DNA of 64,000 nucleotides from Cryptosporangium arvum DSM 44712 (GTDB lineage: Bacteria > Actinomycetota > Actinomycetes > Mycobacteriales > Cryptosporangiaceae): positions 2,294,001 to 2,358,000 of the forward strand of contig NZ_KK073874.1 in NCBI RefSeq assembly GCF_000585375.1, in the 5' to 3' direction. Numbering within the stretch: position 1 is the stretch's first letter; every line of letters starts with the position of its first letter. The notes under the pieces are model-generated. The model was not told the origin of the DNA and searched no databases. It saw only the letters and a program-made list of their open reading frames with translations. Of the stretch, positions 48,843-62,755 are shown piece after piece. Both the position numbers and the translations under genes were made by a program.

Positions 48843-49155
48843 TCATTGCGCGGCCCGGTTGTGGGCGGCGACCTCGCGGACCGCGTCGGCGATGGCAGCG
48901 GAGTCCTTCTTCAGCACCGCGCCATGGTTGCTGGCGACCTTGGCGCTGATCCGGATGTGAGGGTTCCGTGCGACGACCGCGTCGAGGCCGGCGCGGATCC
49001 GTTCCTGCTCGTCGCCCTTGCTTCCGAGAGACGTCCCGGACGGGACGACGTACCGGACCGGCACGGTGAGGGAGTCCAGCACGGGGCCGAGTTCCCGTTC
49101 GCGGGAGAGCTTGCCGAGCTCGATGTTGCTGTCGGCCATCTGGTCAGGGGACAGT
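48843..49155 (-). pseudogene. alpha/beta hydrolase, C-terminal remnant
   Basis: About 104 codons on the minus strand, from LSPDQMADSNIELGKLS through VPVRYVVPSGTSLGSKGDEQERIRAGLDAVVARNPHIRI to KVASNHGAVLKKDSAAIADAVREVAAHNRAAQ. The ending has the catalytic-His segment (SNHGAVLKKD) and last helix of alpha/beta hydrolases; the nucleophile half is missing. The similarity stops at about 49155, exactly where an unrelated gene fragment on the other strand begins. Confidence 0.7.
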
Positions 49156-49693
49156 TCCACATCGTTCCGGCCGGGATCGCGGTACCTTACGTCGCGGCTC
49201 TCGGCGGCACGCGGCTCGGGGTGGGAATTGTGCTGGCGGCCACCGCGACGGGCGCTGGGCTGTCCATGGCCTTCCTCGGCCGGTAGGTCCACCCGGGCGA
49301 AGGTTGCGGCTGCTCCACCCGCTGGCGTTGCTGGCGGCGGCTCCGCTGGCGGCGTGCGCGTTCCGGCCCGGTCTTGCGGTCACCGCGTTGCTGTGGCTGG
49401 CCGCGGGCGCCGGCGCGGGATACCAGTTGATCGCCAATGTCGCCTTCACCAGTGCGGTGCCGGACCAGTGGCGTGCGCAAGCGTTCGGCGTCGTCGGCAC
49501 CGGGCTGGTGACCGGGCAGAGCGTCGGCGTGATCGGTGGTGGCGCGCTGGCCGAGGTCGTCGCCCCGCACGTCGTGGTGGCGATCGCGGGGATGACCGGG
49601 CTGCTCGGCGCGGGCATCCTGTCGTGCTCGAATCGGCGCTCCGCGATCGGCTCCGCGGAGGGGCAGCGGAGTGACCTCCGCGGCGCGGCGTAG
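49156..49693 (+). pseudogene. MFS transporter, C-terminal half remnant
   Basis: From 49156 the plus strand reads FHIVPAGIAVPYVAALGG ... LSMAFLGR then TAG (49284), then in another frame RLRLLHPLALLAAAPLAAC ... GAGYQLIANVAFTSAVPDQWRAQAFGVVGTGLVTGQ. This aligns along its length with the intact MFS at 54094 (FHTVPAGVVAPYAAGFGG, AAYQLAANVAFVRTVPDDSRAQAFALVAAGLVAGQ). The break is explained by one Trp-to-TAG change plus a one-base deletion before 49301. The N-terminal half is absent. Confidence 0.8.
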
Positions 49694-50197: not shown

Positions 50198-51403
50198 GTG
50201 CGTTCGACACGGCACACGCTGGGCTTCTGGCTGGTCGCCGCGACCCTGTTCATGATCATGGTCGCCGCCAGCGCTCCGTCGCCGCTGTACGTCGTCTACC
50301 AGGCACGATGGCATTTCTCGACGCTGATGCTGACGGTGGTCTTCGCCGTCTACGTGGGGGCGCTGCTGGCCGCTCTGATCACGGTCGGGCGGCTCTCCGA
50401 CCACCTCGGGCGCCGACCGGTGCTGCTGGCGAGTCTGGTGGTCGAAGCAGTCGGGATGGCGGTGTTCCTCTCCGCCGACGGGCTCGGCGGCCTGGTGCTC
50501 GCGCGCGTGATCCAGGGCCTGGCCACCGGGGCCGCCACCGGGACGATCAGCGCCGCGCTCGTCGACCTGCTACCACCGGGTCGGGCCCGGCTCGGCGCGA
50601 TCCTGAACAGCGCGGCGCCGCTCACCGGCTTGGCCTTCGGCGCGTTGGCCTCCGGGTTGCTGGTGCAGTACGTGTCCGCGCCGGAGACCGTGGTGTTCGC
50701 CGGGCTGACGATCGCGTTCGTCCTGCTGGCGGTCCTCGTCGTCGCGCTTCCGGAGACGATCGAACGGCGTCCGGGAGCGCTCACCGCCCTGCGGCCGCGG
50801 CTCGGTGTGCCGCGCGAGGCCAGGGCGACGTTCGTCGCGACCTCGCCGGTGCTGCTCGCGACCTGGGCGATGGGTGGCCTCTACCTCTCACTCGGAGCCT
50901 CGCTGACGTCGGGCGTCCTCGGGGTGGAGAACCACGTCGTCGCCGGACTCGTCGTCTCGGTGCTCGCGGGAGCGGGCGCGGTCGCGGGCGTCGTCGCCAG
51001 TGACCGTGCGCCCGCGCGGGTGATGACGGTCGGGGCCGCGCTGCTCGCGATCGGCACGATCGGCTCGCTGATCGCGCTGGTCGACGGGTCGACGGTCGGG
51101 TTCTTCGCCGGGTCCGCGGTCGCTGGGCTGGGCTTCGGCTCCGGCTTCCTGGGCGCGCTGCGGTCGCTGGCTCCGCTGGCGGCACCGGCCGAGCGCGGTG
51201 GCCTGTTCGGCGCGATCTACACCGTGTCGTACCTGGGGTTCAGCGTGCCCGCGGTGATCGCCGGTGTGCTCGTGCCCCGGGTCGGTCTGCGCGAGACCGC
51301 AGTCGGCTACGGCCTGGTCGTGATCGCGCTCGCCCTGAGCGTCGTCGTTCCCCGCGTGTTCCGGATCCGACGCCCGGTCCGCGCCACCCCGGCCGCCGAC
51401 TAG
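50198..51403 (+). CDS. MFS transporter
   Basis: 401 residues from GTG 50198 with GGAGGAA just upstream. Twelve membrane helices; the loop 2-3 motif GRLSDHLGRRPVLL is the MFS motif A, and RVIQGLATGAATGTISAALVDLLPPGRA resembles sugar/drug exporters of the DHA1 group. Likely efflux, repressed by the divergent ArsR protein. It overlaps the convergent STAND gene by 4 bp. Confidence 0.88.
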   Translation: MRSTRHTLGFWLVAATLFMIMVAASAPSPLYVVYQARWHFSTLMLTVVFAVYVGALLAALITVGRLSDHLGRRPVLLASLVVEAVGMAVFLSADGLGGLVLARVIQGLATGAATGTISAALVDLLPPGRARLGAILNSAAPLTGLAFGALASGLLVQYVSAPETVVFAGLTIAFVLLAVLVVALPETIERRPGALTALRPRLGVPREARATFVATSPVLLATWAMGGLYLSLGASLTSGVLGVENHVVAGLVVSVLAGAGAVAGVVASDRAPARVMTVGAALLAIGTIGSLIALVDGSTVGFFAGSAVAGLGFGSGFLGALRSLAPLAAPAERGGLFGAIYTVSYLGFSVPAVIAGVLVPRVGLRETAVGYGLVVIALALSVVVPRVFRIRRPVRATPAAD

Positions 51404-53766
51404 GGCCCCGTCCCGCGGCTTCGACAGCCGCCGATCGGGTCGTGGTCCCCGGTCGTGACCAGGTGAGCCAGCGCGGTGGTCGCCCGCTGCTGTTCGTCCG
51501 GGTTGTCGATCTCGAGCGCCAGCGCCAGCGCGGCCCGGTGGCACTCGGCTGCCTCGTCGCCGCGCCGCAGGCCGGCGAGTGCCCGGCCGAGGCCGTTGAG
51601 GGCGCAGCACTCGCCGTAACGCTCGCCCAGGTCGCGGAAGATCGTGAGGGCCTGCCGGTACCACTCGACCGAGGTTTCGCACTCGTCCAGGGCGAGATGG
51701 CCGTCGCCGAGGTTGGTCAGCGCGGTGGCCTCCCCGCCGCGGTGCCGCAGGTCCCGGAAGAGGACCAGCCCTTGCCTGCTGTACTCGATCGCCTCGGCCG
51801 GGTGTCCCAGCTGGGCGTGCGCGGCGGCCAGATTCGTCACCGTGTTGGCCTCGCCGACCCGGTCGCCGACCTGCCGGAACACCTCGAGTGCTCGGCGCTG
51901 GTACTCGGCGGCGAGGTCGCCGCGTCCGCTCGTGCTGTAGACGACGCCCAGGTTGCCGAGCGCGCGGGCCTCCCCGCGGAGGTCACCGGCCGTTCGGTGC
52001 ACGGCGAGGGCCTGCCGGAGGTGGGAGACCGCGGTGGCGTAGTCGCCGAGCTGCCACCACGCCATCCCCAGGTTCGTCAGCGCGACCGCTTCGGCGACGT
52101 CGTCGCCGAGCTGCCGCGCGGCGTCCCGGGCCCGGGTGTGGACGGTCACGGCGTCCGCCGGGTATCCGCCGTTGTCGAGATAGGTGTAGATCGTTCCGGC
52201 CATCCGCACGACGTACTCCGCGCGACCGGCGCCGGCGGCCTCCGCACAGGCCGCGATCAGCGTCGTGCGCTCGCCGTCCAGCCACGCCCGCGCGTCAGTG
52301 GCGTCGGTGAACTCGAGGTGGGTCGCGGACGGCTGCGGCAGCTCCGGACGGCGGTGCCGCTCCGCGGGCGACAACGTGTTCATCGCCGCGGCTGCGGCGT
52401 GCAGGAGGTGGTCGAGGAGACGTGTCAGCGCGTCGCGCCGGTCGGACGGGCGCTCGTCGTCGCGGGCCCGCTCGGCCGCGTACGCCCCGACGAGGTCGTG
52501 CAGCACGTACCGCTCGGCGTCGGACCGCTGCACCAGGTGCTCGTCGACGAGGCCACGCAGCGCCGCGCCGGCCTCGTCCGGGCCGACGCCGAGCAGCGCC
52601 GCGCAGGCGTGGACGTCGAAATCCGGTCCGGGGTGGGCGGCCAGGCGCCGCAGCAGCGTCTGCCGGGGCGTCGGAAGGTGTTGGTACGACAGGTGCAACG
52701 CGAGTTCGACGCCGGTCTCCAGCCGCCGGTCGCGGGACCGTTCGTCGAGCCGGTCGGCGTGATCGGTCACGGTCCAGCCGGGCCTCCCCACCAACTGCCC
52801 GGCGACGACGCTGAGCGCGAGCGGCAGCCGCCCGCACCGGGTCGTGAGCCGCCGGTACGCGGTGGCGTCGGCGCCGATCGCGAGGCCTGGTGCCGCCGCG
52901 ACCAGCAGGGCTTCGGCTTCCCCGGCGCTGAGCACGTCGAGGTCGAGCCGGACGTCCGCGTCGAGCCGCGGGAGCGCACGCCGGGAGGTGACGACGGTGA
53001 CGGCGTCGCCACCCGCGGGGAGCAGGGGGCGGAGCTGCTCCTCGTCGGCGGCGTTGTCGAGCACCAGCAGCGTCCGGGTGCCGGCGAGGAGCTCGGTGAA
53101 GAGCGCGACCTTCGCGGGCAGGCCAGGGGGGATGCGGTGGCCGGGGCGGCCGAGCAGGCGCAGGAACGCGTCGAGAACGGCCCCCGGGTCCGCCGGAGGC
53201 TGCGCCGGATCCGGGTGGAAACCACGGAGGTCGACGAAGAGCGTCGTCTCGAACCGCTGCTCCGCGGCGAGCAGGTGGCCGGCGTGGATCGCGAGCTGGG
53301 TCTTGCCGACCCCGGCCATTCCGGTGATCAGGGCGACGAGCGACCCGTGGGCGGTGAGCCGCGCCAGCTCGGCGTCTCGGCCGACGAAGCCCGGTACGTC
53401 GTCGGGTAGCCGGTCGAGGACCCGCACCTGCGCCGCTGCCCGCGCCCCCGCGACCGCGGCGCGCAACGCCTGCTGCCAGTGCACGAGGTAGCCGGGCTCC
53501 GCGTGCAGCGCCTCGACGACCTCGAGGACCAGTTCCTCGTCGACGCGGCGCCGGCCGGCCTTGAAGCAGTCCACGACGGTGCCGCGCCGGGCGCGCTCGT
53601 GCTCCGGACGCCCGGTGGTCCGCCGGCGGCCGTTGATCCGCCGGGTGATCGTCTCGTACGAGGGGTCCCCGGCCCAGACCTTGAGTGCGCGCAGACACCC
53701 CGCCAGATCGTCGAGGCTGCGGGCGCGCCCGGGGTCGGGCAGCCCGCCGGTTTCCGCGACGGCCAT
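51400..53766 (-). CDS. STAND (NB-ARC)-TPR regulator
   Basis: 788 residues from ATG 53766 (AGGGGA upstream; the frame is open further but without a ribosome site). The N-terminal region (about 15-100, LDDLAGCLRALKVWAGDPSYETITRRING) is a helical module seen at the start of many actinobacterial STAND proteins. The NB-ARC has a P-loop GMAGVGKT (149-156), Walker B TLLVLDNAAD, sensor TSRRALPRL and the GLPL-like GRLPLAL. From about 560 come TPR repeats of 40 residues (EAVALTNLGMAWWQLGDYATAVSHLRQAL and five more), a likely ligand-sensing arm. It is divergent from three micro-ORFs; short peptides are plausible ligands for its TPRs (inference). Confidence 0.88.
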   Translation of the reverse strand: MAVAETGGLPDPGRARSLDDLAGCLRALKVWAGDPSYETITRRINGRRRTTGRPEHERARRGTVVDCFKAGRRRVDEELVLEVVEALHAEPGYLVHWQQALRAAVAGARAAAQVRVLDRLPDDVPGFVGRDAELARLTAHGSLVALITGMAGVGKTQLAIHAGHLLAAEQRFETTLFVDLRGFHPDPAQPPADPGAVLDAFLRLLGRPGHRIPPGLPAKVALFTELLAGTRTLLVLDNAADEEQLRPLLPAGGDAVTVVTSRRALPRLDADVRLDLDVLSAGEAEALLVAAAPGLAIGADATAYRRLTTRCGRLPLALSVVAGQLVGRPGWTVTDHADRLDERSRDRRLETGVELALHLSYQHLPTPRQTLLRRLAAHPGPDFDVHACAALLGVGPDEAGAALRGLVDEHLVQRSDAERYVLHDLVGAYAAERARDDERPSDRRDALTRLLDHLLHAAAAAMNTLSPAERHRRPELPQPSATHLEFTDATDARAWLDGERTTLIAACAEAAGAGRAEYVVRMAGTIYTYLDNGGYPADAVTVHTRARDAARQLGDDVAEAVALTNLGMAWWQLGDYATAVSHLRQALAVHRTAGDLRGEARALGNLGVVYSTSGRGDLAAEYQRRALEVFRQVGDRVGEANTVTNLAAAHAQLGHPAEAIEYSRQGLVLFRDLRHRGGEATALTNLGDGHLALDECETSVEWYRQALTIFRDLGERYGECCALNGLGRALAGLRRGDEAAECHRAALALALEIDNPDEQQRATTALAHLVTTGDHDPIGGCRSRGTGP

Positions 53767-53891
53767 GTGTCCCCTCCCCTGTGGACGGTGCGACGCCACC
53801 ACTCTGTACGGACTCGTTTGGATTCCGCCACCCGGACGGGTGAACCGGGTCGGATAGCTCCTGCCTGCCGATCGCACGGGAGGAGATCGCC

Positions 53892-53915
53892 ATGCGCGGC
53901 ACCGATTGGGAGTGA
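53892..53915 (+). CDS. micro-ORF 1, 7-residue peptide MRGTDWE
   Basis: ATG 53892 to TGA 53915. GGGAGGAG (53878-53885) lies 6 bases upstream of the ATG, an ideal Shine-Dalgarno. It is the first of three tandem units of about 60 bp that share the pattern M-x-x-Thr-acid-Trp-acid-stop. Codons for the shared residues differ between copies (GAT/GAG/GAC), while the linkers between units are unrelated, which points to selection on the peptide. Function is unknown: signalling peptide, tiny RiPP precursor or regulatory leader peptide. Confidence 0.6.
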   Translation: MRGTDWE

Positions 53916-53951
53916 CGTGTCCTTCGCACGCTTCACGGGAGGAGGTCTGGC

Positions 53952-53975
53952 ATGCGGATCACCGAGTGGGACTGA
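53952..53975 (+). CDS. micro-ORF 2, 7-residue peptide MRITEWD
   Basis: ATG 53952 to TGA 53975, with GGGAGGAGG (53937-53945) 6 bases upstream. Starts 60 bp after micro-ORF 1. Keeps Thr4 and Trp6 and the acidic residues at 5 and 7 while position 3 changes to Ile. Confidence 0.6.
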   Translation: MRITEWD

Positions 53976-54010
53976 CCGGTAGTTCGTTCCGGCCCGGAAG
54001 GAGATCGCCC

Positions 54011-54034
54011 ATGCACGGCACCGACTGGGACTGA
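54011..54034 (+). CDS. micro-ORF 3, 7-residue peptide MHGTDWD
   Basis: ATG 54011 to TGA 54034, with GGAAGGAG (53996-54003) 7 bases upstream. Starts 59 bp after micro-ORF 2. It is followed by a strong stem-loop (54042-54071) and then the MFS gene, so all three micro-ORFs sit in the leader of that exporter transcript. Confidence 0.6.
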   Translation: MHGTDWD

Positions 54035-54041
54035 CACCGAC

Positions 54042-54071
54042 CCGGGTGGCGGAGTGGCCTCCGCCGCCCGG
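54042..54071 (+). promoter_or_regulatory. stem-loop between micro-ORFs and MFS gene (possible attenuator)
   Basis: CCGGGTGGCGGAG (54042-54054), loop TGGC, CTCCGCCGCCCGG (54059-54071): 13-bp stem with one G-U pair. It starts 7 bases after the stop of micro-ORF 3 and ends 11 bases before the exporter Shine-Dalgarno (GAAAGG, 54083-54088). No T tract. It could end the micro-ORF transcript or gate the exporter gene. Confidence 0.6.
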
Positions 54072-54093
54072 CCATCACTCGCGAAAGGTGACG

Positions 54094-55305
54094 ATGCCCG
54101 GCGACCGGCGGACCACGGTCCTGCGCGACCGGGAGTTCCGGGGCCTCTGGCTGGCCCAGACGCTCTCGCGCCTGGGCGACCAGCTCGCCCGCGTCGCGCT
54201 CACCGTGCTGGTGTTCCAGACGACCGGGTCCGCACCGGCGGCAGCCGCGGCCTACGCGGTGACGATGCTGCCCTGGCTGATCGGCGGCCCGTTGCTGGGC
54301 TGGATCGGCGACCGGTACCCGCGTCGCGCGGTGCTGATCACCTGCGATCTCGCCGGCGCCGCACTGATCGCGCTGATGGCACTGCCCGGCCTCCCGCTGC
54401 CCGCGCTCTACCTCCTGCTGTTCGTGGCCACGCTGCTCGGGGTGCCGTTCTCCGCGGCCCGCTCGGCGTTGGTGCGCGACGTCTTCCCGGACGACGACCG
54501 CTACGCGTCCGCGACCGCGATCGGCGCGGTGACCGGGCAGTTCGCCCAGGTAGCCGGCTTCGCGGCCGGCGGGCTCCTCGCCGCAGCGACCACGCCGCGC
54601 CAGGCCCTGCTGTTCGACGCGTTGACGTTCCTCGTCTCGGCCGTGCTCGTCCGCCGAACCGTGGCCGATCGGCCGGCTGCCGCCGCGGGCCCATCGCGAC
54701 CGGGGGAGCGCCACGCGCTCGCCGGAGTCCGGCTGGTGTTCGGCGACCGGCGCCTGCGTCGGCTGACCGGCTACGCCTGGCTGGCGACGTTCCACACGGT
54801 GCCGGCCGGTGTCGTCGCCCCGTACGCCGCGGGCTTCGGCGGCGGTGCCCGCACGATCGGCTTCCTCCTCGCCTGTACCGCGTCGGGGACCGCGCTCGCG
54901 ATGGTCGGGCTGAGCCGGTGGGTCTCCGCCGACCGTCGGCTACTGCTGCTGGAGCCGCTGGCGGTGCTGGCCGGGGTGCCCTTGGCGCTCTGCGTCCTCG
55001 CGCCGGGCCCGGTGCTCACCGGCTTTCTCTGGGCGGTCTCCGGTGCCGGCGCCGCCTACCAGCTCGCGGCGAACGTCGCTTTCGTCCGTACGGTGCCCGA
55101 CGACTCCCGCGCACAGGCGTTCGCGCTCGTCGCCGCCGGTCTGGTCGCCGGTCAGGGCGCCGGGGTGCTGCTCGCCGGCGCCCTCACCGTGGTCGTGCCC
55201 AGCCACCTGGTGGTCGCCGGTGCCGGCCTGCTCGCGACGCTCGGGGCGCTGGCACTCTGGTCCGCGAAGCAGCCGGCCGGCGTGACGATTACGTCCGCGG
55301 CGTGA
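54094..55305 (+). CDS. MFS transporter downstream of micro-ORFs
   Basis: 403 residues from ATG 54094 (GAAAGG 5 bases upstream). MFS drug-exporter type: TVLRDREFRGLWLAQTLSRLGDQLARVALTVLVFQTTGS, motif A variant GWIGDRYPRRAVL, and the second half FHTVPAGVVAPYAAGFGGGARTIGF. Ten to twelve membrane helices. Paralogue of the remnant at 49156. Its position behind three micro-ORFs and a stem-loop suggests it exports the peptides or a product connected to them, or that its expression is controlled by their translation. Confidence 0.88.
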   Translation: MPGDRRTTVLRDREFRGLWLAQTLSRLGDQLARVALTVLVFQTTGSAPAAAAAYAVTMLPWLIGGPLLGWIGDRYPRRAVLITCDLAGAALIALMALPGLPLPALYLLLFVATLLGVPFSAARSALVRDVFPDDDRYASATAIGAVTGQFAQVAGFAAGGLLAAATTPRQALLFDALTFLVSAVLVRRTVADRPAAAAGPSRPGERHALAGVRLVFGDRRLRRLTGYAWLATFHTVPAGVVAPYAAGFGGGARTIGFLLACTASGTALAMVGLSRWVSADRRLLLLEPLAVLAGVPLALCVLAPGPVLTGFLWAVSGAGAAYQLAANVAFVRTVPDDSRAQAFALVAAGLVAGQGAGVLLAGALTVVVPSHLVVAGAGLLATLGALALWSAKQPAGVTITSAA

Positions 55306-55491
55306 TCGACAGCGATCCGACCTCGGTAGGTTCTGCTCGTGGAGCGCGTTCGGCCGGCCGAGTCGCCGGGCGCCGATCCGCCTGCGGGAGTAGCGGACGG
55401 TTGTCCCCTGGATCCGCACGCCGTTGTGCGATCCCGCAGACGGGGGCCGGACCGTGCTCACCCGCGACGAGCGGTGTCCGCCCGGCGGTGC

Positions 55492-56040
55492 TCAGGCCGT
55501 TAGGTAGCGCGCGATGGTCGGCCCGAGCCAGTCGGCGAGTGTCGCGTCGTCCATGTCGACGAGGGCAGGCAGCCCGATGATGTGTCGGGCGACGGCGACA
55601 CCGACGACCTGGGAGCCGATCATCGCGGCCCGCTCCTCCGGGCGGTCCACGGCGAGGGCGCCCAGCGCGGGCGCCACGTACTCGGTGAACATCTCGACAA
55701 GCGTGTCGGCGGCCGCGCGGTTGGACGCCGCCGCGCGGAGCAACGGCAGCAGACGGCCGTCGGGCCCCCAGTCGGCGACGAAGAACGGCACGAGCACGGA
55801 GGCCAGCCGCTCGGGTGGCACCCCCGACAGGTCGGGGATCCGCACGTCCACGCGGGACGCCTCGGCGAACAGGCCCGCTTTGTTGCGGAAGTAGTGCATG
55901 ACGAGCGCCGGATCCACGCCGGCCGCGGTGGCCACCGACCGGATCGTCGTCCGGTCGAAGCCCCGCTCTCCGAACTGGAGGCGTGCGACGCCGAGAATCG
56001 CGGCTCGGGTGGCTTCGGGGTCAGAGCTTCGTGCGGCCAC
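55492..56040 (-). CDS. TetR-family regulator
   Basis: 182 residues from GTG 56040. HTH: TRAAILGVARLQFGERGFDRTTIRSVATAAGVDPALVMHYFRNKAGLFAEA; the C-terminal domain resembles the TetR_C group with LIGxxxxGVAVARHIIGLPALVDMD, found in regulators of antibiotic-related genes. It is divergent from a flavin monooxygenase, with two TCAAC-N4-GTTGA repeats in between. Confidence 0.92.
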   Translation of the reverse strand: MAARSSDPEATRAAILGVARLQFGERGFDRTTIRSVATAAGVDPALVMHYFRNKAGLFAEASRVDVRIPDLSGVPPERLASVLVPFFVADWGPDGRLLPLLRAAASNRAAADTLVEMFTEYVAPALGALAVDRPEERAAMIGSQVVGVAVARHIIGLPALVDMDDATLADWLGPTIARYLTA

Positions 56041-56085
56041 CGAACGAGCTTAAGCCCCACCCGGTCCGGTCCGGGCAACGGCAGT

Positions 56086-56099
56086 TCAACGGTTGTTGA
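56086..56099. promoter_or_regulatory. TetR-type operator, copy 1
   Basis: Inverted repeat TCAAC-GGTT-GTTGA, 46 bp upstream of the TetR start. Same arms and spacing as the copy at 56120; centres 34 bp apart. Confidence 0.65.
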
Positions 56100-56119
56100 C
56101 CACGAATGCTAACCTCAGA

Positions 56120-56133
56120 TCAACACGCGTTGA
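56120..56133. promoter_or_regulatory. TetR-type operator, copy 2
   Basis: Inverted repeat TCAAC-ACGC-GTTGA, 21 bp upstream of the monooxygenase GTG, placed to block that promoter. Confidence 0.65.
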
Positions 56134-56154
56134 ACAGCGGGCGGGAGGCGAACC

Positions 56155-57621
56155 GTGCGACCCGACGACGTCGACGTGCTGGTCGTCGGCGGAGGACCGG
56201 TGGGGCTCACGGTCGCCGGAGACATGGCTCGGTCGGGTCGCTCGGTGACCCTGGTGGAGCGACGGCCCCGGAGCAGTTTCTCGCGCCCCGCCGTCGCAAC
56301 CCAGGCCCGCACGCTGGAACTTCTGGACAGTCGCGGGCTTGCCGACGCGTTACTCGAGACGGGTGATCCGATGCCCGCGGTCACCTTGTTCCGCGACGCC
56401 AGGCTCGAGCTCTCGCGCCTGCGGTCGCGGTATCCGTTCGTCCTGATCACGTCGCAGACCGACGTCGATCGGGTCCTCGGCCGCTACGCGTTCGAGCACG
56501 GCGCGACCATCCTCAATCGCGCGGAGGTGATCGCGGCCGAACAGGACGACGAGGGTGTCACCGCCACCGTGCGGCCGACGGACGGCGGTGAAGCCCGGAC
56601 GGTCCGCGCCCGCTATCTGGTCGCGGCCGACGGTGCGCACAGCACGATCCGCGACGTGCTCGGCGTCGGATTCCCAGGCCGTTCGGTTCTGTCGTCCCTC
56701 GTGTTGGCCGACGTCAAGCTGACCGACGGACCCACCGGCACCGGGTTGGTACTCGGGTCCGCCCCGGACTGCTTCGGCTTTCTGGTCCCGTACGGGCGCT
56801 GGGACGACGAGGGTGCCTGGTTCCGGGCGTCGACCTGGGATCGGAACCGTCAGCTGCCGGACTCCGCTCCGGTCGCGCGCGACGAGATCGCCTCGGTGCT
56901 CATCCGTGCGATGAAGCGCGACGTCGGTCTCGTCGACGTCGGCTGGCGGTCGCGTTTTCACTGCGACGAACGCCAGGTCGACGCGTATCGCGTCGGCCGG
57001 GTGTTCTTCGCCGGCGACGCCGCCCACGTGTGCTCGCCGATGGGTGGCCAGGGCATGAACACCGGCATCCAGGACGCGGCCAACCTGTCCTGGAAGCTCG
57101 ACGCCGTCCTCGGTGGCGCCGAGGACGAGGTGCTGGACTCCTACCACGACGAGCGGTACCCGGTGGGAAAGAGCGCGCTCCGGCGGTCCGGGGTGATGAT
57201 GCGCGGCGTCACGTTGGAACCCCGACTCGCTCGCGTTGCCCGCGATCTGATCGCGTCGCGACTACTCGGCCTGCGGCGCGTGAGCGACCTGCTGGCCGGG
57301 AACTTCGCCGGCACCGAGATCCGGTATGCGCGCCGCCGCGGTCAGCATCCGCTCGTCGGTACCCGCGCAACCGAGGTTCCGCTGGTCGGCAAACGCCTGA
57401 CGGAGGTGCAGCGCAGGCCCGGGTTCGTCCTGATCAGGCCGCGGAACTCCGGTCCGGTGGCGGCGGCGGAGGTCGTGCGGGTCGAGCGCACCGACGACGG
57501 TCCCGCCCTGCTGGTACGGCCGGACGGCTACATCGCCTGGGCCGGGACGCCGACCGACGGCGGCTGGGTGGAGGAGTTGCGCTGGTGGACCGGCGTCCGC
57601 GCAGCCGTGGTACCGCGGTAA
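56155..57621 (+). CDS. FAD-dependent aromatic-ring monooxygenase (PHBH/TetX superfamily)
   Basis: 488 residues from GTG 56155. The dinucleotide motif VLVVGGGPVGLTVAGDMARSG, the DG motif YLVAADGAHSTIRDVLGV and the second FAD motif VFFAGDAAHVCSPMGGQGMNTGIQDAANLSWKL are all intact. The C-terminal thioredoxin-like domain (GFVLIRPRNSG) is present, as in polyketide hydroxylases and rifampicin monooxygenases. It uses NAD(P)H and O2 to hydroxylate an aromatic. Control by the divergent TetR suggests induction by its substrate. It may be separate from the RiPP genes that follow 82 bp later. Confidence 0.92.
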   Translation: MRPDDVDVLVVGGGPVGLTVAGDMARSGRSVTLVERRPRSSFSRPAVATQARTLELLDSRGLADALLETGDPMPAVTLFRDARLELSRLRSRYPFVLITSQTDVDRVLGRYAFEHGATILNRAEVIAAEQDDEGVTATVRPTDGGEARTVRARYLVAADGAHSTIRDVLGVGFPGRSVLSSLVLADVKLTDGPTGTGLVLGSAPDCFGFLVPYGRWDDEGAWFRASTWDRNRQLPDSAPVARDEIASVLIRAMKRDVGLVDVGWRSRFHCDERQVDAYRVGRVFFAGDAAHVCSPMGGQGMNTGIQDAANLSWKLDAVLGGAEDEVLDSYHDERYPVGKSALRRSGVMMRGVTLEPRLARVARDLIASRLLGLRRVSDLLAGNFAGTEIRYARRRGQHPLVGTRATEVPLVGKRLTEVQRRPGFVLIRPRNSGPVAAAEVVRVERTDDGPALLVRPDGYIAWAGTPTDGGWVEELRWWTGVRAAVVPR

Positions 57622-57703
57622 AAGCGGTGTTACTTCCCTTGTGGACAAGTGGGGTACGGCTGATGCTGGTATGGACCCGTCCCCGTCCGAGGAAGGAATC
57701 GCC

Positions 57704-57853
57704 ATGTTCACGAAGACAGACGAGACACTGACCGCGGTCACGCCGGAATTGCTGCAGGAGCTCCTGGTGAACGGTGAAGGAGCGGCGACCGACGACGCGC
57801 TCGAGGGCGGGTTCGTTCCGATCTGCGTCCAGCCGCCGTCGGCCCGCCGTTGA
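57704..57853 (+). CDS. putative RiPP precursor peptide, 49 residues
   Basis: ATG 57704 with GGAAGGAA 5 bases upstream (57691-57698). The peptide has an acidic leader with an amphipathic helix (TPELLQELLVNG), a Gly-Gly at 35-36 (DDALEGG) and a short C-terminal segment FVPICVQPPSARR with a single Cys. The stop codon overlaps the TTG start of YcaO, so both are translated together. Size, leader character and coupling to YcaO-TfuA make it the likely thioamidation substrate. The cleavage site after Gly36 is a guess. Confidence 0.75.
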   Translation: MFTKTDETLTAVTPELLQELLVNGEGAATDDALEGGFVPICVQPPSARR

Positions 57854-59199
57854 CGGCATCGATCGCCGGTGGCGCGCCCGACGGGGCGCGCCACCATCCG
57901 GCCGCGAACCTGCGGACGCGGGTCCCGAAACACGAGGGCCGCGGACCGCACCGGGAGGTGCCGCCCGAGACCACCTGGTCGCGGGTCGAGCCCCACCTGC
58001 GCCGCGCCGGGGTGACCCGGCTGGCCGACGTCACCGGCCTCGACCGGGTCGGCCTCCCGGTCTACACCGCGGTGGTGCCCCGTTCGAACGACACCATCTC
58101 GGTGTACGCGGGCAAGGGCCCGACGCGGCTGTCCGCGAAGGTCTCCGCGGTCATGGAGGCGATGGAGCGCTTCGCCGCGTGGCTCCCGGTGCGCCCGGCG
58201 GTCGTGGCGTCCTACGCCGAGCTCGACGCCGCCGGCCGGGTGGCGGTCGATCCGCGGTCGGTGTGCGTGGAGACGACCGCGAGCTACCGACCGGACGGCC
58301 CGTTGTCCTGGGTCACCGGCTGGGACCTGCTGGCCGGCGAGCCCGTGCTCGTGCCGCAGGATGCCGCGGTCTACCAGCGGCGTCTGCACGAGCCGCCGAC
58401 CTACCGCATCGCCACGACCAACGGCCTGGCCTCGGGCAACAGCATCGAGGAAGCCGTCTGCCACGCGCTCTGCGAGGTGATCGAGCGGGACGCGCTGACG
58501 CTCGCCGACCTGGTCAGCGGCCGGCTGGTGCAGCTCGCCGGGCGGCGCGGCCTGGACGCCACGGCGCTCGAGGAGCGTCACCCGGTGGTCGGCACCGACT
58601 CGCTCACCGGGCGCGCCGCCGAGGTCGTCGCCGCCTACGAGCGGGCCGCGCTCCGCGTCCGGCTGATCGAGATCACCAGCGACCTGCGCGTGCCCACCTA
58701 CGTGGCGACCACCGAGGAGGACCTGGGGCCCGGCACGTCGCGGTGCCACTCGGGGTGGGGAACCCACCCGGACGCGGAGGTCGCGATCGTCCGGGCGCTC
58801 ACCGAGTGCGCGCAGAGCCGGGCGGTCGACGTCCAGGCGATGCGTGAGGACATCAGCGCGCCGGGGGAGGAGGTCTCCCGCTACGAGCGCCACACCCGCC
58901 GGGCCCAGGTGGTCCGGCGCGACGACTGGGTGCGCCGGACCACCGAACCGGTCTCCGCCGCCGCCCGGCCGTCGTATCCGAGCGGCGACGTCGCCGAGGA
59001 CATCCGGCTGATGCTCGGCCGCCTGCGCGACGCGGGGCTGCCCCGGGTCGTCGTCGTGGACCTGTCGCCGCCGGAGATCCCGGTGAGCGTGGTGCGTGTG
59101 CTGGTGCCCGGCCTCGAGTCGTGGGCGGTCGACCATTCGAAGGTCGGCGCGCGTGCCGCCGCGGTGTGGAACGCCGGGCTCGCCGAGGTGACGTCGTGA
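57850..59199 (+). CDS. YcaO-domain ATP-dependent modification enzyme
   Basis: 449 residues from TTG 57850, overlapping the precursor stop. The YcaO ATP/Mg site is visible: SAKVSAVMEAMERFAAW (Glu103, Glu106), ASGNSIEEAVCHALCEVIERDA (195-215) with Glu201, Glu209, Glu212 and Asp214, and TECAQSRA near 318. The C-terminus lacks the PxPxP of azoline-forming YcaO proteins. With TfuA next door the expected reaction is ATP-dependent backbone thioamide formation on the precursor; alternatives are azoline or amidine formation. Confidence 0.92.
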   Translation: MTASIAGGAPDGARHHPAANLRTRVPKHEGRGPHREVPPETTWSRVEPHLRRAGVTRLADVTGLDRVGLPVYTAVVPRSNDTISVYAGKGPTRLSAKVSAVMEAMERFAAWLPVRPAVVASYAELDAAGRVAVDPRSVCVETTASYRPDGPLSWVTGWDLLAGEPVLVPQDAAVYQRRLHEPPTYRIATTNGLASGNSIEEAVCHALCEVIERDALTLADLVSGRLVQLAGRRGLDATALEERHPVVGTDSLTGRAAEVVAAYERAALRVRLIEITSDLRVPTYVATTEEDLGPGTSRCHSGWGTHPDAEVAIVRALTECAQSRAVDVQAMREDISAPGEEVSRYERHTRRAQVVRRDDWVRRTTEPVSAAARPSYPSGDVAEDIRLMLGRLRDAGLPRVVVVDLSPPEIPVSVVRVLVPGLESWAVDHSKVGARAAAVWNAGLAEVTS

Positions 59200-59858
59200 G
59201 CGCGGTGGTGTTCCTCGGCCCGAGCGTCGACCGGCCCACCGCGGCGGGGGTGTGGGACGTCGAGTTCCGTCCGCCGATCGCCCGCGGTGACGTCGACGCG
59301 GTGCTCGCGCGTCCGGAGCCACCGGCCGCGATCGGGATCGTCGACGGGCGCTTCCTCTCCGCGTTCAGCATCTCGCCGAAGGAGGTGCTGCGCGCGCTCG
59401 ACGCCGGTGTCGCGGTCTACGGCGCCTCCAGCATGGGTGCGCTCCGCGCGGCCGAGTGCGCTCCGTACGGGATGATCGGGGTCGGCGCGATCTACGCCGA
59501 GTACGCGTCCGGACGCCTGGACGCCGACGACGAGGTCGCGCTCACCTACGATCCGGACAGCGGTCGGGCCCTGTCCGAGCCGCTCGTCAACTGGCGGCTC
59601 GCGCTCGCGCCGGCGGTCACGTCCGGCCGGGTGGACGCGGAGCTCGCCGCGCGGTTCCTCGCGACGGCGAAGGCACTGTACTTCCCCGAGCGGACGCTCC
59701 CGGCGGTGCTGGCCCGGATGACCGGCGCCGACCCCACCGGGCTCGCGGCGCTCGCCCACTACTTGAAGACCGACGCTCCCGACGCCAAGCGCGACGACGC
59801 GCTCGCGCTGCTGCACCGGATGGCGGCGGACCTGGGTCAGGCGGCACGGGCCACGTAG
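59196..59858 (+). CDS. tfuA: TfuA-like protein
   Basis: 220 residues from GTG 59196, overlapping the YcaO stop by 4 bp. TfuA core: VVFLGPSVDRPTAAGVWDVEFRPPIARGDV, GIVDGRFLSAFSISPKEVLRALDAGVAVYGASSMGALRAAECAPYGMIGVG. TfuA partners YcaO, recruiting or delivering sulfur, in thioamide formation in archaeal methyl-CoM reductase and in thioamitide RiPPs. Co-translated with YcaO. It overlaps the convergent methyltransferase by 22 bp. Confidence 0.92.
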   Translation: MSAVVFLGPSVDRPTAAGVWDVEFRPPIARGDVDAVLARPEPPAAIGIVDGRFLSAFSISPKEVLRALDAGVAVYGASSMGALRAAECAPYGMIGVGAIYAEYASGRLDADDEVALTYDPDSGRALSEPLVNWRLALAPAVTSGRVDAELAARFLATAKALYFPERTLPAVLARMTGADPTGLAALAHYLKTDAPDAKRDDALALLHRMAADLGQAARAT

Positions 59859-60595
59859 ACGATCTTCACGTGCTCGTCCTCGCTGGCCGGAGCGACGAGC
59901 CGCGCGTCACGCCGCGACCAGCCGAGCGCGACCGCCAGCTCGAACCCGGCCCGGCGCAGCGCGTCCGCGATCTCGTCGCCGGAGTAGTAGCGCTCGTGGA
60001 CGACCGCCTCGGAACGCGTCCAGGCGGTGCCGTCGCGGACGAACCCGACGACGCGGAGCTGCGCCGGACCGTCGGTGCCGGCGTCCGCGGGGCGGCCGAG
60101 CAGCGTGAAGAACGAGTCGGGGTGCTCGACGACGATCGCACCGCCGAACAGCGCCCCGAACGTGCTCCGGCTGTTCGTGTCGATCACCAGCACGCCGCCG
60201 GGCCGCAGCCGCTCCCGGCTGCTGCGCAGCGCGGTGACCAGGTCGTCCGGGCCGAGCAGGTGGTTCGCGACGTCGTCGATCCAGGTGACGACGTCGAACT
60301 CGCCCAGCTCCGCGGGCAGCAGGCGCATGTCGGCGACGACGAACTCGACCGGCAGGTCCTTGGCCCTGGCAACGTCGATCATCTCCGGGGCGAGGTCGCA
60401 GCCGGTGACGTCGTAGCCCTGCTGCTGGAAGGCGGCGCTGCTCACACCGGTGCCGCAGCCGACGTCGAGCAGCCGGTTACCGCCGGTACCCCGGGCCTCG
60501 ATCTGCTCGGCGAGAGCCGCGGCCCACGCGTCGTAGTTGTCGCCCGCTTTCAGGACGTCGTAGAAGCGGGCCATCGCCGCGTAGTCGCTCGCCAC
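59837..60595 (-). CDS. class I SAM-dependent methyltransferase
   Basis: 252 residues from GTG 60595 (an internal ATG seven codons later is possible; neither has a clear ribosome site). Motif I LLDVGCGTGVSSAAF, acidic GCDLAPEMIDVAR, motif post-I VVADMRLLP and motif IV WIDDVANHLL. The C-terminal beta-rich part (RVVGFVRDGTAWTRSEAVVHERYYSGDEI) matches small-molecule methyltransferases. It is convergent with TfuA and may be a tailoring enzyme of the RiPP or unrelated. Confidence 0.9.
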   Translation of the reverse strand: MASDYAAMARFYDVLKAGDNYDAWAAALAEQIEARGTGGNRLLDVGCGTGVSSAAFQQQGYDVTGCDLAPEMIDVARAKDLPVEFVVADMRLLPAELGEFDVVTWIDDVANHLLGPDDLVTALRSSRERLRPGGVLVIDTNSRSTFGALFGGAIVVEHPDSFFTLLGRPADAGTDGPAQLRVVGFVRDGTAWTRSEAVVHERYYSGDEIADALRRAGFELAVALGWSRRDARLVAPASEDEHVKIVYVARAA

Positions 60596-60722
60596 CAGGA
60601 AAGTCTAGAGTGGACCGGGCCTTGGCCGGGCCTCAGCGCTGCGGTGGTCCTGCCGGGCCGGCGATCGAGCGCCACAGCCACTAGCCGAACGTCGGGGGGA
60701 CAAAAACTGCGGCCGCTCGCAG

Positions 60723-60878
60723 GTGTGGTGGCACGCGGTGGAGAGCACCCTGCGCGCGGAACTGGTCCCGCCCATGCGGGACGTCATTCTGCGGCTATCG
60801 TCACTGGGCGGACACGCCCCACTCGCCGGCGCAGGACGCGCCGGATGGCGGATCGTCGATGAGGTGCAGCGCGCGTGA
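60723..60878 (+). pseudogene. C-terminal remnant of an unidentified gene before GntR
   Basis: The frame reads VWWHAVESTLRAELVPPMRDVILRLSSLGG then HAPLAGAGRAGWRIVDEVQRA and stops at TGA 60876-60878, overlapping the GTG of the GntR frame. The coupling suggests a real operon remnant. I do not recognise the family; the 5' part is not found upstream. Confidence 0.4.
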
Positions 60879-61512
60879 GCAAGGCGGAGAGCGCGATGGC
60901 CGGCAAGGCGATGAAGTACGACGTCATCGCCCGGGATCTGTCCGCTCTGATCGACACCGAGAAGCCGGCGACAAGCTGCCCAGCGAGGTGGAACTAGCCG
61001 CCACCTACGGGGTGTCGGCCATGACCGTGCGGCGCGCCATCCAGATTCTCACCCAGAGCGGCCGCATCGAAGGCGACACCGTCCGCGCCTCCCCGAGCAG
61101 CAAGCTGCTGTCCGCGTCCCTCGGCTGGCCACCCCGGAGGAGTTGCGGGCCTTCGAACTGCCGGACGAGTCCTCCGTCCTGCACATACCGCGGGTGCGCT
61201 TCGGCGACGACGTCCCCCTGTGCGTCGAGCACGCCACGCTGCCCGCCGAACGATTCCCCGGGCTCCTCGGCCACGACCTGCTGGCCTCGCTCTACGGCAT
61301 CCTGCGCGTCAAGTACGGCGTCGAGGTCACCTGGACCCGCTCCGAGGTGGAGGCCGCCACGACCCCGCCGGACGCCGCACGACACCTGGGCATCAGCAGC
61401 CGCACCCTGCCCGCGCACCCGCGACCAGGACGGCGTCGTCATCGAACGCACCACCTCGCTGTACCGCGGAGACTTCTACACGCCGACGCTGGAAGCCGGA
61501 CAACGTCCCTGA
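60875..61512 (+). pseudogene. GntR/HutC-family regulator, multiply frameshifted
   Basis: The pieces in order are AMAGKAMKYDVIARDLSALIDTEKP (frame 1), GDKLPSEVELAATYGVSAMTVRRAIQILTQSGRI (frame 2, the GntR winged helix), TPEELRAFELPDESSVLHIPRVRFGDDVPLCVEHATLP (frame 3, the UTRA ligand domain) and DQDGVVIERTTSLYRGDFYTP (back to frame 2). Shifts fall near 60966, 61125 and 61420. The gene is dead. It and the upstream fragment interrupt the RiPP region and may derive from an integrative element (KorSA-like regulators are of this type), which is speculation. Confidence 0.85.
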
Positions 61513-61630
61513 CGCCGGCGAATCAACCCCAATGGTTTACATCTGTACCAATCAGTCCGAAGTAGATTGACAGCGAAATAACTCTCCTTTCAGGATGGTG
61601 GCGCTAGTTGCCGGACTCCACGGGGGAGCC

Positions 61631-62755
61631 ATGCAGCGTCCACGCATCAAGCCGGAGCATGCCGCGAACCGGATCTCCGACGGTCGGATCCGGCTCGGTG
61701 GTCACATCTACGGCGTCGCGGCCGAGGTGGACGACCCGAGCGGTGCGGTCTGGACCCTGCTGGAGAGCATGGACGGCCACCGTGACGTCGAGCAGATCGT
61801 CAGCCGGGTCCGGGCCGCGCACCCCACCGAGTCCGAGGAGTCGGTCCGGGCGGGACTCGGGACCTTCGTCGGATCCGGGTACGTGGAGGACCTCGGCGCG
61901 CCCGACCCGCCCGAGCTGACCGAGCTCGACAAGGATCGCTACTCCCGCAGCCGGGCCTATTTCCGCTGGCTGGACACCACTCCCCGGGTGCGTAGCTGGG
62001 AACCGCAGGTGGCGCTGAGCCGGGCCCGGATCACGCTGATCGGTCTGGGCGGTACCGGTGGCACGGCGGCCATGGCGCTGGCCGCCAGCGGAGTGGCCCA
62101 GCTCCGCTGCGTCGACCCGGACGTGGTGGAGCTGTCGAACCTCAACCGCCAGGTGCTCTACGGCGAGGCGGACATCGGCCGGCCCAAGGTGGAGGCGGCG
62201 GCCGACCGGCTCGCGCAGCTGAACTCGGCCGTCGACGTGGTCACGTTCCAGGAGCGCGTCACCGGCTCGGCCGACGTCGAGCGGCTCGTCGCGGACTGCG
62301 ACGTGCTGGTGCTCTCGGCCGATCGGCCGACGGCCCTGCGCCGGTGGACGAACCGAGCCTGCCTGGCCACCGGAACCCCCTGGGTGGATGCCGGCTACCA
62401 CGGTCCGATGGTGCAGGTGGGGCGTTACGTACCGGGCGTCGGCGCGTGTTGGGAGTGCATCCGAACCGTCGACAACGACCACTACCGCGAGATCGACGTC
62501 AACCTGCGGGATGCCGAACCGCGGAACGAGGCGGTGGCCGACGCGGTCGCTGCACCCACCGCGGGCATCTCCGGGTATCTCGCGGCCCATCACGCGATGG
62601 CGCTGATCACGGGCGTCCCCTCGCTCCCCGCCGGCCGGATCGACGCACTGAACCTGCTCGCGCCGGAGGCGACGTTCGTCCGGGACGATCCGCGGCGGCC
62701 GGACTGTCCCGCCTGCGGGACCACCGACGCCGCCCGGACCGGGACCGAAGGATGA
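61631..62755 (+). CDS. ThiF/E1-like adenylyltransferase with PqqD-like N-terminus
   Basis: 374 residues from ATG 61631 (GGGGGAG close upstream; ATG 61595 would add 12 residues). Residues 1-90 resemble a PqqD-like RiPP recognition element (RPRIKPEHAANRISDGRIRLGG, WTLLESMDGHRDVEQIVSRV). Residues 115-370 are a ThiF/MoeB/MccB-type E1 domain: nucleotide loop IGLGGTGG (137-144), DxxxxxNLNRQ (DVVELSNLNRQVLYG), and zinc Cys pairs CWEC and CPAC. It should adenylate a peptide carboxylate or amide. The A/T-rich 61513-61594 presumably carries its promoter. Co-translated with the protease gene. Confidence 0.88.
   Translation: MQRPRIKPEHAANRISDGRIRLGGHIYGVAAEVDDPSGAVWTLLESMDGHRDVEQIVSRVRAAHPTESEESVRAGLGTFVGSGYVEDLGAPDPPELTELDKDRYSRSRAYFRWLDTTPRVRSWEPQVALSRARITLIGLGGTGGTAAMALAASGVAQLRCVDPDVVELSNLNRQVLYGEADIGRPKVEAAADRLAQLNSAVDVVTFQERVTGSADVERLVADCDVLVLSADRPTALRRWTNRACLATGTPWVDAGYHGPMVQVGRYVPGVGACWECIRTVDNDHYREIDVNLRDAEPRNEAVADAVAAPTAGISGYLAAHHAMALITGVPSLPAGRIDALNLLAPEATFVRDDPRRPDCPACGTTDAARTGTEG

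Follow-up and report, generated by a model that had tools for sequence, protein, structure and literature searches.

Three tandem ORFs of seven codons each stand in the genome of Cryptosporangium arvum DSM 44712 ahead of an MFS transporter gene and divergent from a gene for an NB-ARC/TPR (STAND-type) protein. The locus raises the question of whether such minute genes make a peptide that acts beyond its own message or act as leaders of the gene that follows them. The initial annotation of the window, meaning the whole 64,000-nucleotide stretch of DNA that was analysed, named both readings: a peptide signalling or export module, or a multi-leader switch controlling the exporter.

The window array

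Three seven-codon micro-ORFs with strong ribosome sites are borne out in sequence and coordinates (Table 1), and their start-to-start distances are 60 and 59 bp, as the initial annotation had them. In a repeat search a 41-nt unit forms a three-copy repeat in the window, two copies being 63 and 76% identical to the one taken as reference, and the repeat stops short of the linkers. The stem-loop, the MFS gene behind it and the divergent STAND-TPR gene are also where they had been placed, and Pfam identifies the two proteins as MFS and NB-ARC/TPR. Four codons vary among the window copies, 0 of them synonymously and two by D/E swaps, and the three copies by themselves contribute no synonymous evidence for coding.

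Table 1. Positions of the micro-ORF array and the adjoining features in the window
Feature	Position	Strand	Description
NB-ARC/TPR (STAND-type) protein	51400..53766	-	Divergent from array; Pfam, NB-ARC just under cut-off
Shine-Dalgarno site, micro-ORF 1	53878..53885	+	GGGAGGAG
Micro-ORF 1	53892..53915	+	MRGTDWE-stop (ATG CGC GGC ACC GAT TGG GAG TGA)
Shine-Dalgarno site, micro-ORF 2	53937..53944	+	GGGAGGAG
Micro-ORF 2	53952..53975	+	MRITEWD-stop (ATG CGG ATC ACC GAG TGG GAC TGA)
Shine-Dalgarno site, micro-ORF 3	53996..54003	+	GGAAGGAG
Micro-ORF 3	54011..54034	+	MHGTDWD-stop (ATG CAC GGC ACC GAC TGG GAC TGA)
Hairpin	54042..54071	+	13 bp, 4-nt loop, without T-run; between array and MFS gene
MFS transporter	54094..55305	+	PF07690; TIGR00900 and EntS models below cut-off

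In the 9.2-Mb genome, ATG-2 codons-T-[DE]-W-[DE]-TGA matches three times, each time at the window array, and the reversed-pattern control has 0 matches. The tight T-[DE]-W-[DE] motif is absent from four other genomes of the window's family that were examined. The initial annotation had proposed searching for ACN-GAN-TGG-GAN behind GGAGG, and the tight motif with GGAGG in front had no match among 84,980 named genomes, a set that possibly does not include the window's own genome. Uniqueness of the exact motif was dropped as a sign of non-conservation, and the looser patterns tandem W-[DE]-stop and then tandem MxxxxWx revealed a family. Conservation in relatives, on which the initial annotation had staked its proposal, has two sides: the exact peptides are unique to the window, but genes of this type recur elsewhere, again linked to an MFS gene.

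A family of tandem micro-ORFs in actinobacterial genomes

By pattern search, 19 of 394 actinobacterial genomes have tandem arrays of ORFs of seven codons, for the most part of the form M-R-[G/D]-x-x-W-x-stop. The wide pattern, run on the 394 genomes of the class, consisted of two ORFs of the form ATGC/RTGC-11N-TGG-NNN-TGA spaced 30-60 nt apart. Its reversed control gave 0 matches in the 19 array genomes and, among the matches listed, three, all in one genome (G173) that had no forward match. Within arrays the repeats follow one another at intervals of mostly about 60-80 bp. Because of its spacing limit the wide pattern missed wider arrays such as MRGWKWS (L030/L181), which came from scanning the neighbourhoods of MFS homologues. 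The tandem W-[DE]-stop pattern matched in 10 of the 394 genomes, the window genome and nine with the family label f22, which is taken to be Jiangellaceae. One f22 match (G168) was a simple repeat and was dropped; eight f22 genomes carry arrays reading MRGNSWD or MRANSWD. Among 26 contigs from a scan of named genomes, four had arrays, from Jiangella and Phytoactinopolyspora, and in the other 22 the script found no SD-preceded pairs of similar ORFs. Species with arrays are Jiangella muralis, J. endophytica, Phytoactinopolyspora limicola and P. halophila.

MRDTTWS is encoded by a 13-ORF array (G138), and further array peptides are MRDNTWT, MRDNTWS, MRDNNWN, MRDSNWT, MRDVNWT and MRHTSWS. The window's genome contains a second array, MRGATWG, with seven copies of which the last ends in TAA (G000 contig 7918286-7918756). 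Five arrays with differing peptides occupy separate loci in the genome G013 (contigs C55, C93, C104, C137 and C407; L182 and L185-L188), as if several parallel specificities coexisted in one genome. The initial annotation had singled out Thr4, Trp6 and acidic residues 5 and 7 as kept; this holds within the window, but in the wider family Arg2 and Gly/Asp3 are frequent and only Trp is near-constant. Judged by its reading frames, the family encodes mostly peptides of 7-9 residues with Trp at or adjoining the penultimate position. A search for single micro-ORFs near MFS genes gave 11 matches in 49 loci, 7 of them known arrays, and an equal-size control gave 7. MRNKNW (L008, from a congener of the window genome) and MSKDWK (L045), both beside MFS genes, were rejected as indistinguishable from background.

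Most arrays are paired with a membrane diguanylate cyclase

Gene context was compared for 31 fetched arrays of 2-13 copies each, the window included. Pattern searches that used neither the cyclase nor the MFS gene supplied 29 of them; L181 and L182 were noticed through the MFS gene, and L182 was also recovered by pattern alone. The first ORF is divergent from a gene with the membrane half of a diguanylate cyclase in 29 of the 31 arrays. The GGDEF half is visible in 28 of these 29, and at the other (L188) the contig ends before it. Six array-side cyclase proteins were typed as GGDEF (PF00990, Pfam). Five or six hydrophobic segments make up part of the N-terminal half of each of three proteins examined, and this half aligns across families; an AlphaFold model of the cyclase from a 4-row alignment has a mean pLDDT of 40. 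The window array has no adjacent cyclase, and, with seven candidates scored, its genome has no match to the cyclase N-terminal profile at E 1e-12. In that genome the second array precedes a GGDEF-EAL gene and is transcribed in the same direction.

Homologues of the window MFS adjoin micro-ORF arrays in other families, and at 25 of the 31 loci the array is convergent with such a homologue at its far end (tblastn). The window is the array with a codirectional MFS gene. Five arrays lack an MFS gene at the far end (L185, L187, L188, L189 and L203), and at L187 a homologue sits across the cyclase, on its other side. Neighbours further out are also conserved at the MRD-array loci of Jiangellaceae (L190-L201), which may be plain synteny; at L196 these are a lactonase-type beta-propeller, a second MFS, a ThiF/nitroreductase-domain protein and a GAF-GGDEF-EAL protein.

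The STAND-TPR gene of the window was examined for the same kind of linkage. At E <= 1e-120 in 394 genomes, with two candidates scored in each, it has a single further match, another copy within its own genome (L292), and the flanks examined of this copy contain no such micro-ORF. The idea of STAND-TPR proteins as recurrent array partners finds no support in this result from the best two candidates per genome, and the trio of array, MFS and STAND-TPR has no second example in the same search. The recurring partner of the arrays is the membrane diguanylate cyclase rather than the STAND-TPR protein.

Many related cyclases have micro-ORFs upstream

The cyclase N-terminal profile matched 84 of the 394 genomes in at least 105 places (seven candidates scored per genome), and 93 upstream regions were examined. 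The rule required an SD-like site and 6-9 codons with Trp in the penultimate or antepenultimate position, on the divergent strand and within up to 800 nt. It matched 62 of the 93 regions, compared to 0 on the other strand, 2 in reversed and 1 in complemented sequence. Without the 29 regions of known arrays, 33 of 64 match, against 0, 0 and 1 in the same controls. The contrast with the controls outweighs the raw count because the rule was developed on some of these regions and the genomes are related and not independent. Matches are spread over seven family labels (f9, f12, f19, f20, f22, f31 and f34) besides the window's own family. They include new single-copy forms (MLRGVTW[TI], MSSG[IV]QW[VI], MSKGVSWA, MYNGTVWV, MRNIIWG and others) and the new tandem forms MRDNKWSR, MRDNHWTP and MRDAHWES/NW. 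The remaining 31 of the 93 regions have no match, and three of them contain the near-forms MRNTHWTRA, MRENCW and MRNII, the last without Trp.

Sequence variation preserves the encoded peptides

Within the 31 arrays, the variable codon columns are synonymous in 41 cases and not in 8, the window accounting for 4 of these 8. Random changes made to the same extent gave a mean of 10.4 and a maximum of 21 synonymous columns in 2000 trials; the observed columns are not independent, owing to the common ancestry of Jiangella species. Differences within arrays are thus mostly synonymous, which indicates that selection maintains the peptide. In the MRGATWG array (six copies compared), four third positions vary and the first and second positions of codons 2-7 are invariant. 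Serine is encoded by either AGC or TCC among the copies of MRGNSWD arrays. The seven MLRGVTW[TI] loci are 0.95-0.96 identical over the SD and ORF compared to 0.52-0.61 outside, and the stop is TGA, TAG or TAA among the 26 single-copy members listed. The existence of a micro-ORF coding family is, on this comparison of sequences, near certain.

These data bear on a reading in which the arrays are direct repeats at the DNA level, either operators or recombination-prone elements, that merely resemble ORFs. Short tandem repeats at the observed spacing are what such elements would look like, but the mainly synonymous variation, the AGC/TCC switches and the changing stop codons of single-copy members already contradict it. 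The DNA-repeat reading was set aside as highly improbable.

The arrays as candidate leaders

A second alternative is a cis-acting leader in which ribosomes on the micro-ORFs would respond to Trp, to an antibiotic or to some other ligand, and a hairpin would relay the response to the gene that follows. The window has the parts for this. Its array is upstream of and codirectional with the MFS gene, as the second array of the same genome is with the GGDEF-EAL gene. The hairpin is stable at -29.4 kcal/mol (z -2.8 for a 55-nt piece), and a distant inverted repeat of 19 nt with 84% complementarity could compete with it. Over 53860-54110 the RNA is not unusual in structure (z -0.7), and Rfam gives nothing near thresholds. 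The hairpins behind other arrays share no pattern and are mostly unremarkable; a few, the window's included, beat shuffles in stability. No sigma-70-like promoter or T-run terminator is found at 53600-54300. Actinobacterial terminators can be without a T-run, and the window hairpin is probably a terminator or a structured spacer that may end the array transcript ahead of the MFS gene.

The orientation of the relatives weighs against a leader. An array convergent with the MFS gene cannot be its 5' leader, which applies to 25 of the 31 loci, and 29 of the 31 are transcribed away from the cyclase. The claim of a multi-leader switch controlling the exporter loses support on the first of these counts, and we consider a cis-acting leader improbable. 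The other half of the original proposal, a peptide module, gains from the multi-family set, the selection at the peptide level and the linkage to transporter and signalling genes.

Surroundings of the window array

The STAND-type protein of the window carries TPRs and may be a regulator or receptor; of the NCBIfam models, HaaT and AfsR match it best, and neither reaches its cut-off. At 49023-49627 lies what is left of a disrupted second MFS gene akin to that at 54094; its two matches are 37 and 55% identical, and an inner TAG interrupts the first. A tRNA-Pro call by ARAGORN at 51116-51211 sits within the MFS gene at 50198-51403 and is probably a false positive. Downstream, 55492-57621 encodes a regulator of TetR type and an FAD monooxygenase; the NCBIfam models that match the latter include that for rifampin monooxygenase, which stays below its cut-off. 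A YcaO-TfuA-ThiF-M50 peptidase gene group occupies 57641-62755 and runs on beyond 63990 (L090). A 70-codon ORF at 57641-57853, immediately before the YcaO gene, is a candidate precursor, and the group is probably a RiPP cluster with its own precursor.

The YcaO/TfuA pair, about 3.5 kb downstream of the array, is compatible with the micro-ORFs being minimal RiPP precursors whose Trp is modified by an enzyme encoded elsewhere and whose product is exported by the MFS. A near-constant Trp, multiple precursor copies and an exporter are also compatible with this, and passages of PMC13417212 on the biarylitides show that 18-bp precursor genes exist. Against it, the neighbours that recur beside arrays are a GGDEF protein and often an MFS, and no maturation enzyme recurs directly beside them. 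The ThiF and nitroreductase domains, typed in L196 with relatives at other MRD loci, occur only in Jiangellaceae and beyond the MFS gene. The window YcaO gene is preceded by its own candidate precursor, and there is no P450 among the eight window proteins typed (50198-60592). A RiPP origin of the micro-ORF peptides is unlikely.

Proposed working of the system

The arrays point away from the cyclase and towards the opposing MFS gene and have no downstream gene of their own, so that the product should be the peptide. Several ORFs per mRNA would raise the peptide dose, and since multiplied near-identical ORFs raise the yield, the arrangement fits an exported or diluted product. The MFS protein may carry the peptide through the membrane to be read by a sensor encoded nearby. 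In most relatives the GGDEF protein would sense it with its membrane half and give c-di-GMP as output. The window has a trio of the same kind with another third partner, the STAND-TPR protein, which could replace the cyclase as sensor. Peptide differences between loci would confer specificity. Against this reading stand the window genome, which is without this cyclase type, and the five arrays without a far-end MFS.

A peptide made and retained in the producing cell would also explain part of the layout. It would bind the cyclase or transporter from inside, like small regulatory proteins, and the divergent pairing with the membrane cyclase at 29 of 31 arrays fits this, as does the length of seven residues, too short for a secretion signal. 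Up to 13 copies and peptides that differ between loci would suit a signal better, and we rate the intracellular regulator as unlikely.

The signal reading is the one we prefer. A signal function of the micro-ORF peptides is plausible, with a chance only slightly short of even, and the same estimate is placed on the window micro-ORFs being a small tandem array for a leaderless heptapeptide that acts as a signal beyond its own message. More tentatively, and with appreciably less confidence, the family may represent a multi-family actinobacterial form of communication in which unprocessed peptides of 7-9 residues, an MFS transporter and a cyclase receptor give a direct readout into c-di-GMP. The receptor module would be exchangeable, to judge by the STAND-TPR protein of the window and by the GGDEF-EAL locus that its genome also has. 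Genes of 24 bp lie under the usual gene-calling thresholds, and conserved tandem genes of this size tied to second-messenger enzymes would add to actinobacterial biology a layer that has been overlooked. Should the peptides prove to be signals, cyclases of unknown input would gain a genetically encoded and readily synthesised ligand.

Comparison with known systems

Leader-peptide attenuation is known for resistance or exporter genes. The window resembles it in having short ORFs and a hairpin ahead of an MFS gene. Unlike attenuators, the arrays of the relatives run towards an opposing MFS gene and away from the cyclase and are the 5' leader of neither; upstream ORFs codirectional with the MFS gene are found in the window only.

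Biarylitides derive from a five-residue precursor encoded by an 18-bp gene, according to passages of PMC13417212 and PMC8708641, and share with the micro-ORFs a minimal ribosomal peptide gene that escapes gene callers. In the same passages a dedicated P450 forms the biaryl bridge, whereas most micro-ORF peptides have one aromatic residue. In place of a P450, the typed neighbours of the relatives are GGDEF, MFS and other proteins.

The leaderless communication peptides (LCPs) of Firmicutes are the nearest described analogue, by likeness of the proposed working and not by membership. An example is SIP-RopB of Streptococcus pyogenes, in which a 24-bp ORF for the mature octapeptide adjoins the gene for a TPR receptor, as described in parts of PMC10518010. 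Both systems have an ultrasmall ORF with a ribosome site and without leader or cleavage site, predicted for the micro-ORFs from their sequences; in both it lies beside a candidate receptor gene, is overlooked by annotation and encodes a peptide that varies between species. The window has in addition a TPR protein as neighbour. The micro-ORFs differ in belonging to actinobacteria and in being repeated in tandem, up to 13 times. The same parts of PMC10518010 describe LCPs of mostly 8-10 residues that are highly hydrophobic, whereas the micro-ORF peptides run mostly to 7-9 residues, chiefly 7 or 8 among those of the arrays and upstream regions, and contain Arg, often Asp and the near-constant Trp, and those of arrays have both charged and polar side chains. 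The LCP-RopB class is further defined by a peptide that leaves the cell, re-enters it and binds the receptor. LCPs are encoded beside receptors of the RopB family, in those accounts; no RopB/RRNPPA-family receptor takes this place here, where the neighbour is the membrane cyclase or, in the window, the NB-ARC/TPR protein, and often an MFS. A literature search by narrow terms, mostly in open-access papers, found no account of the micro-ORF family. None of the known kinds tested has its full defining set of features in this gene family and its layout, and their proposed working resembles that of the leaderless communication peptides.
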